This document shows, piece by piece, positions 14,536-19,638 of a stretch of 37,328 bases of DNA (position 1 is the stretch's first letter; every line of letters starts with the position of its first letter). Location of the stretch: assembly GCA_016870915.1 (NCBI GenBank), contig VFZY01000039.1, positions 1 to 37,328 of the forward strand, written 5' to 3'. Under the pieces are notes generated by a model. It saw only the letters and a program-made list of their open reading frames with translations, did not search any database and had not been told where the DNA came from. Source of the DNA: Acidobacteriota bacterium (GTDB lineage: Bacteria > Acidobacteriota > Terriglobia > Bryobacterales > Bryobacteraceae). The position numbers and the translations under genes were made by a program.

Positions 14536-14564
14536 GTGTCATGGCCGGCCGGGCCGGTTATAAT
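14536..14564 (+). promoter_or_regulatory. Sigma70-like promoter, probably giving a leaderless mRNA
   Basis: GTGTCA at 14536-14541, a 17-base spacer and a perfect TATAAT at 14559-14564. The -10 ends 7 bases before the ATG at 14572, so transcription would begin at or next to the start codon. No Shine-Dalgarno sequence is present. This is the clearest promoter in the window. Confidence 0.7.
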
Positions 14565-14571
14565 CGGACGC

Positions 14572-15765
14572 ATGGCTACCAGGCGTCACCTCCTCAAGTC
14601 CATGGCTGCCGGCCCCCTTGCCGCCGGCGCGGCCAACGCCGCCACAACCCGTTCGGCGGAGAAGTCCGGCGGCTCCATCTACGCCCGGCTCGGCGTGAAG
14701 CCGGTGATCAATGGCGTGGGCGTGGTCACGGTGCTCGGCGGCTCCATCATGCCGCCTGAAGTGGTCCAGGCCATGAATGAGGCTTCGCAGTGGTTCATTC
14801 CCCTGCCCGAACTCCACAAGAAGGTAGGCGCCCGCATCGCCGAGCTTCTCAAGGTGGAAGGCGCCATGGTCACCTGCGGAGCCGCGTCCGCCATCCAGGT
14901 GGCCGCCACGGTCTGCATCACCCGCGGTGATCAGAAGAAGCTCCAGCAGTTGCCCTCCACCGAGGGCCTGCGGTTTGAAGTGGTCCAGCAGAAGACCCAC
15001 CGCAGCGGCTATGAGCAGCAGATGCTCGCCGCCGGCGCCCGCATCGTGTGGGTGGAAACGCGCGAGGAAGCCGAGCGCGCCATCGGTCCCAACACGGCCA
15101 TGATGTTCTTCCTCAACAAGGCGGAACCGATGGGCGCCATCAAGCGTACCGAATGGATCGAACTCGGCAAGAAGCACGGCATCCCCACGTTCAACGATGC
15201 CGCCTCCGACGCCACGCCCCGCGAGAACCTGTGGAAGTACGTCCACGAGGGCTTCGATCTGGTGGCTTTCTCGGGCGGCAAAGCGCTGCTCGGCCCCCAG
15301 GCCAGCGGCCTGCTGCTGGGCAAGAAGGACCTGATCGAAGCGGCCATGCTCTCCCTTAGCCCCTATGGCGGCGTCGGACGCGGCATGAAGGTGGGCAAGG
15401 AGGAGATGGTGGGTCTGCTCGCCGCCGTCGAGCGCTACCTGAAGGTGGACCACGAAGCCGAAATGCGCGAACTCGGCCGGCGCGTCACCGAAATGACCAC
15501 CGTTCTCAGCAGCATCGACGGCCTGAAGCTTGAGCGGCACGTACCCCAGATCGCCAACGAAGTGCCCCACCTGGCCATCGAGTGGGACGAAACGAAGATC
15601 AAGGCCACCTCGCAGCAGATCACGGAGAAGCTCCGCGAAAACGACCCGCCCATCCACATCCAGCGGCCCGGCGAAGGACGTCTTCTCATTTCCGTCTGGA
15701 TGATGCGGGGAACCGAACACCGCATCGTCGCCCGCCGCCTGGCCGAACTCTTCCGCGCCGGCTGA
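14572..15765 (+). CDS. Tat-exported PLP-dependent protein of the SelA-like / aminotransferase-fold family
   Basis: Protein of 397 residues. The N-terminus is a twin-arginine signal (MATRRHLLKSMAAG, then an alanine-rich h-region to about residue 24). The rest matches the SelA-like fold type I PLP family that includes D-glucosaminate-6-phosphate ammonia-lyase and selenocysteine synthase: INGVGVVTVLGGS near the start, TCGAASAIQVA, a cofactor-binding FNDAASDATP, and the Schiff-base lysine K237 in AFSGGKALLGPQASG. Catalytic residues look intact. The substrate is unknown; it could act on an amino acid or amino sugar in the periplasm. Export of a PLP enzyme of this family is unusual. It is transcribed from its own promoter. 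Confidence 0.82.
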   Translation: MATRRHLLKSMAAGPLAAGAANAATTRSAEKSGGSIYARLGVKPVINGVGVVTVLGGSIMPPEVVQAMNEASQWFIPLPELHKKVGARIAELLKVEGAMVTCGAASAIQVAATVCITRGDQKKLQQLPSTEGLRFEVVQQKTHRSGYEQQMLAAGARIVWVETREEAERAIGPNTAMMFFLNKAEPMGAIKRTEWIELGKKHGIPTFNDAASDATPRENLWKYVHEGFDLVAFSGGKALLGPQASGLLLGKKDLIEAAMLSLSPYGGVGRGMKVGKEEMVGLLAAVERYLKVDHEAEMRELGRRVTEMTTVLSSIDGLKLERHVPQIANEVPHLAIEWDETKIKATSQQITEKLRENDPPIHIQRPGEGRLLISVWMMRGTEHRIVARRLAELFRAG

Positions 15766-15801: not shown

Positions 15802-16089
15802 ATGCTCGGCATGGTCGAGACTGCATTAGACAGCGAGATCGTCTACCACCAGTTCAACCGCCTGATCGGCGAACTGCTCAAAGGCACCATCAACCGCAAC
15901 GTGTTCCAGCCCTGGGAGATCACTCTTCTGCTGGACATTGATTCCTGCCAGTTGGACGAGAAACGGAAGCGCGACATCCTGGTCCGTTACCAGAAAGCGG
16001 TCCACAAACAGTTGGGCCGCGGCAGTTCGACGCCCATCACGATGTCGGAATTCCTTCAGACGGTGCGCTCGCGTTCTACGGTATCCTGA
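15802..16089 (+). CDS. Conserved-looking small protein of unknown function
   Basis: Predicted 95-residue, charged, soluble protein with mainly helical character (FNRLIGELLKGTINRNVF; KRKRDILVRYQKAVHKQL). No signal peptide, membrane segment or recognised catalytic motif. I do not recognise the family. Coding is supported by its place between two real genes in the same direction, the lack of a competing frame, and typical composition. A second ATG at 15811 is an equally plausible start. Its stop is 21 bases before the yggX-like start. Confidence 0.6.
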   Translation: MLGMVETALDSEIVYHQFNRLIGELLKGTINRNVFQPWEITLLLDIDSCQLDEKRKRDILVRYQKAVHKQLGRGSSTPITMSEFLQTVRSRSTVS

Positions 16090-16110
16090 ACCTCAGGGAG
16101 TGGATTGTCC

Positions 16111-16446
16111 ATGGGATGTGGTAGCGGAATGACCTTTGCGGCCGGTAGCGAACGGCCGAATCGTACCGGCAGACGCGTTTTTTGCGTCAAGTTCCAGAAA
16201 GAAATGTACGGCCTCGACGAGTCACCGTTCGACAATCACCCCATCGGGCAGCGCATCTTCGACAACGTCTCCATGGAGGCCTGGAAACTCTGGCTGGAGC
16301 ACATGAAGATGATCATGAACGAGTACCGGCTCAACCTCGGCACGCAGGAGCATCAGGAGTTCCTCATCGGCCAGATGGAGCAGTACTTCTTTGGCGAAGG
16401 CGCGGCATTCCCGGCCGGCTACGTCCCCCCCAAGTCCAAGAACTAG
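16111..16446 (+). CDS. Fe(II)-trafficking / oxidative damage protection protein, YggX-like
   Basis: Small cytosolic protein of about 111 residues. From about residue 20 it matches the YggX family: RRVFCVKFQKEMYGLD with the conserved cysteine, then GQRIFDNVSMEAWKLWLEH, NEYRLNL and QMEQYFFGEGAAF. In enterobacteria YggX protects Fe-S clusters from oxidation and may carry labile iron. This copy has an N-terminal extension of about 20 residues and a short proline/lysine tail compared with the about 90-residue proteobacterial form. Candidate starts are TTG 16105, ATG 16111 and ATG 16129; CAGGGAG before 16105/16111 favours one of the first two. Confidence 0.85.
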   Translation: MGCGSGMTFAAGSERPNRTGRRVFCVKFQKEMYGLDESPFDNHPIGQRIFDNVSMEAWKLWLEHMKMIMNEYRLNLGTQEHQEFLIGQMEQYFFGEGAAFPAGYVPPKSKN

Positions 16447-16492: not shown

Positions 16493-17242
16493 ATGATCAG
16501 CAAGAAGATCCGGAAACTGGTGGAGGAGCGCGAACACAAGCGCGGCATCCTGGTGGCCTTTGAAGGCCCGGACGGCTCCGGCAAGACCACCCAGCGCAAG
16601 CTCTTCAAGGACTGGCTCAAACAGCAGGGCCACCAGGTGGTCACCACCAAGTGGAACTCCTCCAAGCTCATCAAGCCCCTGGTGAAGGCGCGCAAGAGCC
16701 TGCGTGCCCTCAGCCCCAGCGAGTTCTGCCTGCTGCACGCCGCCGACTTCCGCCATCGCCTGGAGAACGACATCCTGCCCGCACTCTGGGAAGGCAAGGT
16801 GGTCATCGCCGACCGCTACCTCTTCACCGCCCTCGCCCGCGACGTGGTCCGCGGCATGGAACTCCACTGGGTGCTCAACGCCTACGCCCCCCTGTTCTGG
16901 CCGGACATGGTTTTCTACTTCTCCGTGTCGCCGGAAACCTCCGGGCGCCGGATCGCCGCCGAACGCACGCCCAGCTTCTATGAGTCCGGCCAGGACATCA
17001 CGGACATCGACAATCCCCACGAAAGCTATCAGAAGTTCATCGGGGATGTGATCGGCGAATACAACGCGCTCTCTCACATCTTCGACTTCATGACGCTCGA
17101 CGCCGAGAAGCCCATCTACGACCAGCACCGCGAGATCCGCCAACTGTTTCAGTCCGGTAAGCGGCGAAGCTGGAGCGAATTCAATCTCGACGCCATTGCG
17201 GACTGGCTGGCCTACCGGCCGGAGTATCACGATGCCCGGTAA
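16493..17242 (+). CDS. Thymidylate-kinase-like P-loop kinase
   Basis: Protein of 249 residues in the thymidylate/nucleoside monophosphate kinase fold. Walker A is intact (GPDGSGKT, residues 25-32). The helix ILPALWEGKVVIADRY carries the DR pair (D107, R108) used in the TMPK active site, and a LID-like region follows (SGRRIAAERTPSFYE). It is about 40 residues longer than typical dTMP kinase, with extra sequence at both ends, so it may be a divergent relative rather than the housekeeping Tmk; substrate not proven. An upstream in-frame start at 16391 lies inside the yggX-like gene and would add an unlikely proline-rich tail, so I use the ATG. It overlaps the next gene by 11 bases. Confidence 0.82.
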   Translation: MISKKIRKLVEEREHKRGILVAFEGPDGSGKTTQRKLFKDWLKQQGHQVVTTKWNSSKLIKPLVKARKSLRALSPSEFCLLHAADFRHRLENDILPALWEGKVVIADRYLFTALARDVVRGMELHWVLNAYAPLFWPDMVFYFSVSPETSGRRIAAERTPSFYESGQDITDIDNPHESYQKFIGDVIGEYNALSHIFDFMTLDAEKPIYDQHREIRQLFQSGKRRSWSEFNLDAIADWLAYRPEYHDAR

Positions 17243-17747
17243 GAAGGCTCGTGGCGTGCTGGTGGCAGTGGATGGGCTGCGCACCGCTGATTTGGCGGCG
17301 GGCGCCAAGACCGCCCTGCGCACCCTCGCCGGCAAAGGCGGCGTCAGCACCTGGGATGCCTCCGGCATCTTTTTCGAACTGGAACGGAACCAGGCGCAGC
17401 CGGGCATTCGCTCCGCCCGCATGCTGCTGCTTCTGTATGCCGCGGACCTGGCGTTCCGTCTGCGGTGGGAAATTGAACCCGCCCTCGACGCCGGCATGAA
17501 CGTAGCCGCCGCGCCCTATGTGGACACCGCCGTCGCGTTCGGGCGCGCCGCGGGTCTGCCCGCCAAATGGCTGCGCGACCTGTTCGAGTTTGCCCCCGCC
17601 GCCACCGGCCGCCACCGCGTGGAAGCCAGCACGCGCCGCGGCGCCGCCGGATTCATCGACACCGCCTGCACCATCCTCGGCGATACAGGCACCGTTCGCG
17701 CCCGGGCCGCGGAACTTCTCGCCCCCGCTAACCTACGCGCAAAGTGA
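17232..17747 (+). CDS. Degenerate thymidylate-kinase-like paralogue (predicted pseudokinase)
   Basis: Protein of 171 residues that aligns along its length with the gene just upstream: RGVLVAVDG with RGILVAFEG, LLLLYAADLAFRLRWEIEPAL with FCLLHAADFRHRLENDILPAL, and the following Gly-plus-strand region. The catalytic elements are gone. The Walker A stretch reads GLRTADLA (residues 15-22) with Leu21 in place of the lysine, and the DR pair is Ala94-Pro95. The LID region is shortened. The reading frame is intact and overlaps the kinase gene by 11 bases, so it is probably a maintained protein, perhaps a partner of the active kinase, rather than a pseudogene. Its 3' end overlaps the convergent phosphatase gene by 20 bases. 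Confidence 0.72.
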   Translation: MPGKKARGVLVAVDGLRTADLAAGAKTALRTLAGKGGVSTWDASGIFFELERNQAQPGIRSARMLLLLYAADLAFRLRWEIEPALDAGMNVAAAPYVDTAVAFGRAAGLPAKWLRDLFEFAPAATGRHRVEASTRRGAAGFIDTACTILGDTGTVRARAAELLAPANLRAK

Positions 17748-19638
17748 CCCGGTTGCTCGCACGGCCCCGGCAGTTCACCCAGAATTCGTAGCTCCCCGGC
17801 GCCAGATCCGCCGGAACCTGGAAATTCACCTGGTTCAGCCCCGTAAATCCTGGCGCCAGACCGGCGAACGCCGGCGCCAAAGTGGTCTCGCCCAGGTGCA
17901 CCACCACCGGATTCCGCACGTTGAGCGGCGGCGATGCGGGCGATTGGTGCCCTGTCTCCACACTGCCGTTGCCGGGACGCCCCAGGCCCGTGACAAAGAC
18001 CTGCAGGAATTCACCCGGCCTTGCGGGTAAGGCCACATCCACCACGCGGCCATCTGTGTGCAGGATCGCCCCCACCGAGGCCTGGGAATCGACGACAAAA
18101 ATCCCCGGGCCTGACTCCTCCACCGTCACGTTCACCTCCACCTGGCCATTGGGCGTCGTCAGACGCAACAGCGCCGGACCCATCACCTCAAACGGCACCT
18201 GGGCATTGATTTGGCGCGGCGAGACAAAGTAGAGCGGCATCCGGTAGCCGGCCAGCGATATCCGCGTGCCCGCGATCTCACCCGCCAGGGGGCTGGCGGA
18301 ATTCAACAAGGTGTCGAACGCCAGGTTCTCGCCGAAGACGCTGACAATGCCGCCCGGCGCCAGAGTCTGCGCGTAGGAAGCCGAATTCACCACGGTAATC
18401 GCGCTCGCCGCCGGACCGGGAGCCAGGTTGAACTGGTCAAGGGCCGTACCGTCCGGTTTCACCGCCGTCAGCGTCAGGCGGCCGGGCGTGGCATCCACCC
18501 GAACATAGTGATGCGCGGAAATCGAGACCGCGGAAAACGGCCGCAAGTTCGCGGCGTACAGCCCGGCGCCCCCTCCGCCGCTGGTGACGTACACAATGCC
18601 GCGGTCTTCCACCGCCCGGCCCCCTCGCAGGGGCCGTGTGCGCTCATAGGCATGCTCGTGGCCGCCGAAAACAAGCTGAACGCCGTGTTTTTCGAGAATC
18701 GGGATGATGTGCTGCCGGGAAAGCCGGGAGAGCGGGTCATTCTCGTGCGTCCCGGTGGCGTACGGCGTGTGATGCCAGAACGCAATCTTCCAGGGCTTAC
18801 TTGTGGCCGTCAGGTCCCGGTCCAGCCACTGGAGCATACCGCCGGAACGCTCCACCGCATCGGACAGGGGAAGATTGCTGTCCAGCGAAACAAAGTGAGC
18901 GTTTCCCCAATCAAAGGAGTAGTAGCGGCCCCGGTCCGCCGGCGGCACACCCGGCGAGGGCAGACTATGAACGTTCAGATAGGCGGCCCCATCGTCCAGG
19001 TCGTAATCGTGATTGCCGGGACACGGAAACGACGGAACACCCCGGAACAGGTCACGGTAGGTATCGAAATAGTAGGCCTGGAAACCGGCGTAGGTGGCGC
19101 TGGGGTACACCAGGTCCCCGGTATGGATCGAAAATGACGGCCGCTCAGCCATCATCCGTAGCGCCAGTTGAGACTGCTCCCCCGTCCCGGCGCCTGAATC
19201 GCCGAAGACAGTGAACCGGAAGTTTACAGCCGTTTCGGGCGCCGTGCGGAAGTTCAACTCGCCGTCGGGCGTCAGCGGTGTCAGATTCCGCGTCCCGGCA
19301 TAGGCCCGGTAGAAGTACTGCGTATTGGCCTGCAGACCGGTGATTTCGGCCTGATGTTGAAAGAAGCGGTAGGGCAGATTCGTCTGGTTTTGGGCGAACT
19401 CCCGGCTTTCGGCCCGAACCACCAGAGGCCGGCCGAAGGTTCTATCGGCCGACACCCAAATCGCTGCATTTTCAACGGCTTCACGCGTCGTCCACAGAAC
19501 CGCCGCGCGGTTCGGACGCACGTTTTGAAGGTAGGGAAACCGCACCAGCGTGACGCCCGCGCCGGGTGTCTGAGGAAACAACGGGAGTGTGGCGGCGCCA
19601 ATGGCACCTCTCAGCACGGCCCGCCGGGTGTTCCCCAT
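17728..19638 (-). CDS. Exported purple-acid-phosphatase-like metallophosphoesterase with Solibacter-type C-terminal domain
   Basis: Protein of 636 residues with a twin-arginine-like signal (MGNTRRAVLRGAIG). Residues about 28-135 form a purple-acid-phosphatase N-terminal (Fn3-like) domain. The metallophosphoesterase domain follows with all five metal blocks: GDSG (D147), GDLVY (D175, Y178), GNHD (N209, H210), WHH (H289/290) and GGHEH (H327, H329). Residues about 412-635 resemble TIGR03437, a domain found mainly at the C-termini of exported acidobacterial proteins (VVNSASYAQTLAPGG, VSVFGENLA, GLGRPGNG, GLNQVNFQVP). Likely role: phosphate release from esters outside the cytoplasm. AGGAATAGGGGAA precedes the ATG. 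It is a single gene, convergent with the kinase pair. Confidence 0.9.
   Translation of the reverse strand: MGNTRRAVLRGAIGAATLPLFPQTPGAGVTLVRFPYLQNVRPNRAAVLWTTREAVENAAIWVSADRTFGRPLVVRAESREFAQNQTNLPYRFFQHQAEITGLQANTQYFYRAYAGTRNLTPLTPDGELNFRTAPETAVNFRFTVFGDSGAGTGEQSQLALRMMAERPSFSIHTGDLVYPSATYAGFQAYYFDTYRDLFRGVPSFPCPGNHDYDLDDGAAYLNVHSLPSPGVPPADRGRYYSFDWGNAHFVSLDSNLPLSDAVERSGGMLQWLDRDLTATSKPWKIAFWHHTPYATGTHENDPLSRLSRQHIIPILEKHGVQLVFGGHEHAYERTRPLRGGRAVEDRGIVYVTSGGGGAGLYAANLRPFSAVSISAHHYVRVDATPGRLTLTAVKPDGTALDQFNLAPGPAASAITVVNSASYAQTLAPGGIVSVFGENLAFDTLLNSASPLAGEIAGTRISLAGYRMPLYFVSPRQINAQVPFEVMGPALLRLTTPNGQVEVNVTVEESGPGIFVVDSQASVGAILHTDGRVVDVALPARPGEFLQVFVTGLGRPGNGSVETGHQSPASPPLNVRNPVVVHLGETTLAPAFAGLAPGFTGLNQVNFQVPADLAPGSYEFWVNCRGRASNRVTLRVG

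Follow-up and report, generated by a model that had tools for sequence, protein, structure and literature searches.

Why would a bacterium keep, directly behind the gene for an intact nucleotide-kinase-like protein, the gene for a second protein of the same fold from which the catalytic motifs have been lost? This question is raised by a tandem gene pair in a stretch of 37,328 nucleotides from a genome of the Acidobacteriota family Bryobacteraceae (hereafter the window), in which gene A (16493 to 17242, plus strand, ATG start, 249 aa) encodes a P-loop kinase of the thymidylate kinase (TMK) superfamily and gene B (17232 to 17747, plus strand, ATG start, 171 aa) encodes a shorter relative without P-loop, Asp-Arg pair or LID region. 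An earlier note on this DNA, made from the sequence alone, had read the pair as a TMK with a pseudokinase partner, and its description is accurate in the particulars. By their ORF coordinates the adjacent genes overlap by 11 bases (17232 to 17242); judged from sequence and alignment, A retains the Walker A motif GPDGSGKT (residues 25-32; 16565 to 16588, plus strand) and Asp107-Arg108 (16811 to 16816, plus strand) within an intact DRY, while B, in an uninterrupted frame, has GLRTADLA (residues 15-22; 17274 to 17297, plus strand) at the place of the P-loop and Ala94-Pro95 (17511 to 17516, plus strand) at that of Asp-Arg. The two proteins do align over most of the shorter one, as had been claimed: BLASTP gives 28% over 144 columns at E 0.001, which is marginal for a lone pair, and profile comparisons agree.

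The catalytic motifs of A are conserved throughout its group, with both the Walker A pattern G.[DE]G[SA]GK[ST] and Asp-Arg present in 22/22 aligned A proteins (the alignment is without L057, which is truncated by its own contig, and L072). A matches Pfam Thymidylate_kin at 1.1e-25 and, with 100.2 bits, passes the 83.25-bit cut-off of the NCBIfam dTMP kinase model TIGR00041. Its predicted model (pLDDT 92.8) matches the Sulfolobus tokodaii protein ST1543 with 40% identity and a target TM of 0.90. Membership of A in the PPK2 family was considered and dropped, its score against PF03976 being 13.5 bits under a cut-off of 22.3. Solitary A-like paralogues (291-320 bits), with no B-profile match alongside, were seen at L136-L139 (genomes G113, G088, G100 and G074).

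B is a TMK-fold pseudokinase: the fold is kept, the catalytic residues are lost in its orthologues and the gene is retained. All 23 aligned B proteins lack Walker A, and neither Asp nor Arg is found in any of them at the DR places, where Ala or Val is followed by Pro (22) or Gln (1). Searches of B against Pfam and NCBIfam returned nothing over any cut-off (TIGR00041, 11.8 bits), but a profile built from five B proteins reaches solved TMKs, including 2plr (S. tokodaii ST1543) at 5.9e-15. A structure prediction, one of the checks suggested in the earlier note, gives a TMK fold for B: the AlphaFold2 model built from B-only rows has a pLDDT of 88.4 and a pTM of 0.85, its top Foldseek matches are ST1543 structures (E 9.9e-08), and VIA-align gives Z scores of up to 14.5 against TMKs and 13.5 against ST1543. 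Because both the B profile and the predicted B model match solved TMKs, the kinship of A and B is not a matter of chance. The tail of B is variable among homologues, and 20 columns are invariant among the 23 B proteins, of which nine lie in the long helix of residues 62-86 (17415 to 17489, plus strand). The long helix of TMKs is their dimer face, and from the invariant columns and the model we propose this helix as the surface of B that would face A. Invariant residues specific to B include W41, S44, F75 and W79.

The two genes stay paired in many Acidobacteriota, and their arrangement is strict. B-type genes were conspicuous (117 bits or more) in five of 61 related genomes, and a scan of an 84,980-genome collection yielded 22 named loci in metagenome-assembled genomes (MAGs) titled Acidobacteria or Bryobacteraceae and, in one case, Acidimicrobiia; open B frames occur under the same titles, some of the Acidobacteria being designated gp5 or gp6. 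The Acidimicrobiia-titled MAG carries its locus at L058, perhaps through mis-binning or transfer. Among 399 genomes of the class, 10 have B-type genes (over 190 bits) and the identical 10 have A-type genes, nine of them over 380 bits and the remaining one, in G088, clipped by a contig end (274.6 bits). When each genome is counted once, 23 non-redundant loci remain (the window, L141 and all but one of the 22 named loci), and A lies directly before B on one strand in all 23, so that the adjacency the earlier note had proposed to look for is conserved. Gaps were modelled for 24 loci with both genes, namely L072 and the 23 just given, of which four went by other locus ids there, with start codons picked by script, which makes individual values uncertain. 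The gap ranges from -68 to +16 bases, except at L072 (+109, A shortened), and is negative in 19/24 loci including the window, the others being +1, +2, +8, +16 and +109; the script-chosen B start falls within A in 18 of the 23 other loci. The A gene of L072 (7208-7882) is shorter than that of its near twin L073, possibly through an assembly error, and this locus was omitted from later counts.

Could B nevertheless be a functionless duplicate in decay? B is truncated, free of motifs and evolving faster than A (median pN 0.44 versus 0.27), and a worn B-like fragment without A is known from genome G347 (81.8 bits, 97-codon frame). Its frame is, however, open in all 23 non-redundant full loci, and its 20 invariant columns are difficult to reconcile with decay. 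The dN/dS ratio of B, another check named in the earlier note, is below 1, with purifying selection evident in close pairs: the two closest B pairs give 0.361 and 0.116 (0.162 and 0.077 for the corresponding A pairs), and among pairs with dS < 1.5 (22 sequences each) the medians are 0.49 (B) and 0.27 (A), with B reaching 0.87 where dS is near saturation. Decay is therefore extremely improbable, and the view of B as a pseudogene was ruled out by its conservation, fold and dN/dS.

Nor does the pair stand alone: a second and commoner TMK-like tandem pair exists and is widespread in the phylum (type 2, with genes A2 and B2, as opposed to the type-1 pair A-B). The window's own genome has one, adjoining a Ppx gene, on another contig (G000:C180, L035:1479-2892, minus strand). 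Across 82 type-2 loci, picked by hand and not at random from 79 class and phylum genomes, the phylum ones being the best-scoring, the aligned Walker position holds Lys in every first gene (82/82) and Arg in every second gene (82/82), and the DR Arg is kept in 81/82 first and 82/82 second genes. In these 82 loci (mean 5.5 kb), with neighbour families named after Pfam, Ppx was found in 46, CHAD in 53 and either in 61, compared with 1/32 type-1 loci with Ppx or CHAD (duplicates included, mean 13 kb).

The second pair also tends to occur where polyphosphate kinase PPK1 is missing. Its second-gene profile matches 40/396 phylum genomes at 1e-50. Within the class, PPK1 (PF02503) was found in 227/399 genomes; 43 genomes have both the second pair and PPK1, 132 the pair only, 184 PPK1 only and 40 neither, in a tally for which the genome lists were compiled by hand and four of 179 matched genomes (G058, G107, G100 and G347) were set aside as having only type-1 hits or a B fragment. 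The corresponding odds ratio is 0.07, or 0.17 without family f11, both values being uncorrected for phylogeny; the number of PPK1 genomes in f11, 106, was obtained by subtraction, and no f11 genome is among the pair-profile matches. PPK1 is nonetheless present in 43/175 carriers of the second pair, and in 9/39 carriers within the window's family. The window's genome (97% complete) has no match to PPK1 or PPK2. Among 10 type-1 genomes searched, PPK1 occurs in 4 and PPK2 in 6, which indicates that the type-1 pair is not tied to the absence of either.

To place B among these proteins, phylogenies were reconstructed with and without canonical tmk sequences. In the all-group alignment B can be matched to the others from its first strand through to where the helices beyond the DR place end. 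Each of the four groups (A-type, B, A2 and B2) is set apart by a branch of its own, with support of 79 to 99 on 123 columns. When canonical tmk serves as outgroup, B, on its long branch, is placed outside the other three groups, a position that carries a long-branch warning. Without the outgroup, B2 and B group in the free tree (support 82), and trees constrained to A+B or A2+B are not rejected (p-AU 0.80 and 0.79). The tree thus decides neither the order of the four groups nor the sister group of B, and so gives no grounds for deriving B from a copy of A.

Whether the system is a dTMP kinase, as the earlier note had assumed, is doubtful. A has the fold, P-loop and DR of the canonical bacterial TMK homodimer but differs from it in the LID region and lacks the FAxR motif, whereas B lacks all of the catalytic motifs. 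The Arg of FAxR contacts the substrate phosphate in TMK. The motif is present in 5/5 canonical tmk proteins extracted (10 loci were tried, of which the script extracted five and not the other five) and absent from all 24 aligned A, B, A2 and B2 rows. Furthermore, a canonical tmk is encoded elsewhere in the window's genome (G000:C305, 169.9 bits). The dTMP-kinase label of A is doubtful on account of this separate gene and of the missing FAxR in A and B. A reading that makes A an additional kinase for dTMP, or for nucleoside monophosphates in general, with B as its dead regulatory subunit, would explain why A passes TIGR00041 and matches Thymidylate_kin, and why its nearest solved relative was deposited as a dTMP kinase; we consider it unlikely, given the canonical tmk already in the genome, the lack of FAxR and a neighbourhood that is linked to phosphate and not to nucleotides. 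Of the earlier proposal, the thymidylate-kinase identity is therefore the part that does not hold up well, the neighbours and relatives pointing to polyphosphate or phosphate, even though TIGR00041 is passed; the part that stands is a conserved TMK-fold pseudokinase directly after A with its dimer-face helix kept.

The neighbourhood of the type-1 pair is recognisable across its loci. In the window, B is followed on the opposite strand by a convergent purple-acid-phosphatase-like metallophosphoesterase (17731 to 19638, minus strand), a homologue of which is found in 17 of the 23 type-1 loci, window included. Phospholipase D (PLD)-like proteins occur in 18 of these loci, Porin_O_P in 13, CotH in 12 and DUF4956 in 9, mostly as convergent genes downstream of B. 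The same search found PLD, metallophosphatase, porin, CotH and DUF4956 each in 0/14 type-2 loci, the type-1 loci spanning 5 to 37 kb and the compared type-2 loci 7 to 11 kb. CotH, porin and DUF4956 each fail to appear in at least 10 of the 23 loci, and some of these loci are short contigs. No type-1 locus contains Ppx (0/23), and the only one with CHAD is L141 (G065), which has the two pairs inside 12 kb: A-B, PLD, an ORF that by eye is STAS-like, then CotH, porin, STAS-DUF4956, His_Phos, B2, A2 and two CHAD ORFs. The window itself lacks the porin-CotH-PLD-DUF4956 cluster, the metallophosphatase being the only one of the five families next to the pair; another contig of its genome, C301, carries DUF4956, PLD and CotH as a group.

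Three of the PLD-like proteins (L037:1567-2478, L039:11165-11983 and L141:1961-2950) also pass the threshold set for the model of PPK1 C-terminal domain 1; the PLD-like protein of L038 does not. At a porin/CotH/DUF4956 locus one would expect a polyphosphate polymerase of the VTC type. A VTC match was found in 1/13 type-1 genomes, on a separate contig, and VTC was accordingly dropped as a part of the type-1 system. One small contig (L248, G009:C459) has a match to the VTC polyphosphate polymerase together with CotH matches; a search of L248 with a separate reference CotH gave no match there.

Taken together, we favour, with a probability of about 0.55, the interpretation that A and B form a two-subunit TMK-fold phosphotransferase in which one partner is dead and whose substrate is probably polyphosphate or phosphate. 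A would hold the sole active site, with ATP (or ADP) bound by its P-loop. B, which would neither bind nucleotide nor catalyse, most likely pairs with A, since it retains the core and the helix by which TMKs dimerise, and may fix or regulate the shape of A; B is best understood as A's dead partner, presumably in a heterodimer. The substrate is most likely linked to phosphate or polyphosphate and not dTMP, as suggested by the second pair, which sits among Ppx/CHAD genes and is found preferentially in genomes lacking PPK1, and by the phosphate-porin, CotH, DUF4956 and metallophosphatase genes near A-B. It should be noted that A exceeds the dTMP-kinase cut-off, that the window lacks the four-family cluster, that B evolves faster and varies in its tail, and that some genomes have PPK1 beside either pair, or PPK2 beside type 1, all of which count against this interpretation. 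It is also conceivable that B does not bind A at all, A being a homodimer and B serving some other partner, such as the products of the PLD-CotH-porin locus, as adaptor or structural protein. The conserved type-1 neighbourhood and the invariant residues that are B's own (W41 and the others named above) would fit such a role, but A and B co-occur strictly (10/10 class genomes) and are tightly linked, while CotH, porin and DUF4956 are each so often missing; we regard this as quite improbable. Returning to the two-subunit phosphotransferase, a broader formulation is put forward tentatively, with the odds against it: that Acidobacteriota possess heteromeric TMK-fold polyphosphate kinases in which an active subunit is joined by an obligatorily dead one, that the Lys-to-Arg form replaces PPK1 in much of the class, and that the window's form has shed the whole active site of the partner and serves a phosphate-porin/CotH/DUF4956 locus in place of the expected VTC-type polymerase.

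Among known proteins, the S. tokodaii 'dTMP kinase' ST1543 (PDB 2plr, 4nzy, 4rzx, 5h70) is the closest solved relative of A in sequence and fold, and also that of B and of the type-2 second gene. By alignment, ST1543 itself has an intact P-loop and keeps the ATDF...R helix, and its structures comprise a single intact subunit, unlike A with its dead B. An archaeal family-3 polyphosphate kinase (PPK3) of Sulfolobus has reportedly been described by Hofmann et al. (2024 bioRxiv; 2026 JBC 302:111283), and we take it to be a TMK-family member; if so, the second pair would probably be its bacterial kin and A-B a branch with a further-degenerated partner. Two articles (PMC11677633, PMC13318637) cite the enzyme that makes polyphosphate in S. 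acidocaldarius as a PPK-type enzyme of a separate family, which the title of the preprint calls family 3. In the relevant part of another article, SixA, PPX, dTMP kinase and CHAD of biomining archaea are drawn as one cluster (PMC10892726), which the surroundings of the second pair may resemble (Ppx or CHAD in 61/82 loci, compared with CHAD in 1/23 and Ppx in 0/23 type-1 loci). Class II PPK2 of Pseudomonas aeruginosa (PA3455) is presented in a portion of PMC8776046 as a fusion of an inactive and an active domain; it is one chain of the PPK2 family, whereas A-B are two genes and A falls under the PPK2 cut-off. No TMK/pseudo-TMK pair was found in the open-licence literature searched, which omits the papers on family-3 polyphosphate kinase.

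Many Acidobacteriota genes that can be annotated as dTMP kinase may thus encode heteromeric phosphotransferases with a conserved dead subunit. Such enzymes are a candidate answer to how polyphosphate is handled in genomes without PPK1, the window's genome, devoid of PPK1 and PPK2 matches, among them. The Lys/Arg pair and the Lys/no-P-loop pair provide a natural series for studying the purpose of dead nucleotide-kinase subunits. Upstream of A, the window encodes a SelA/aminotransferase-like protein (14536-15765, plus strand; Pfam SelA 5.5e-10) with a weak TAT-signal match, followed at 15802-16446 (plus strand) by a small ORF and a YggX-family iron protein (PRK05408, 112.7 bits); a two-gene order similar, by eye, to the latter two occurs at L044 (1581-2405).
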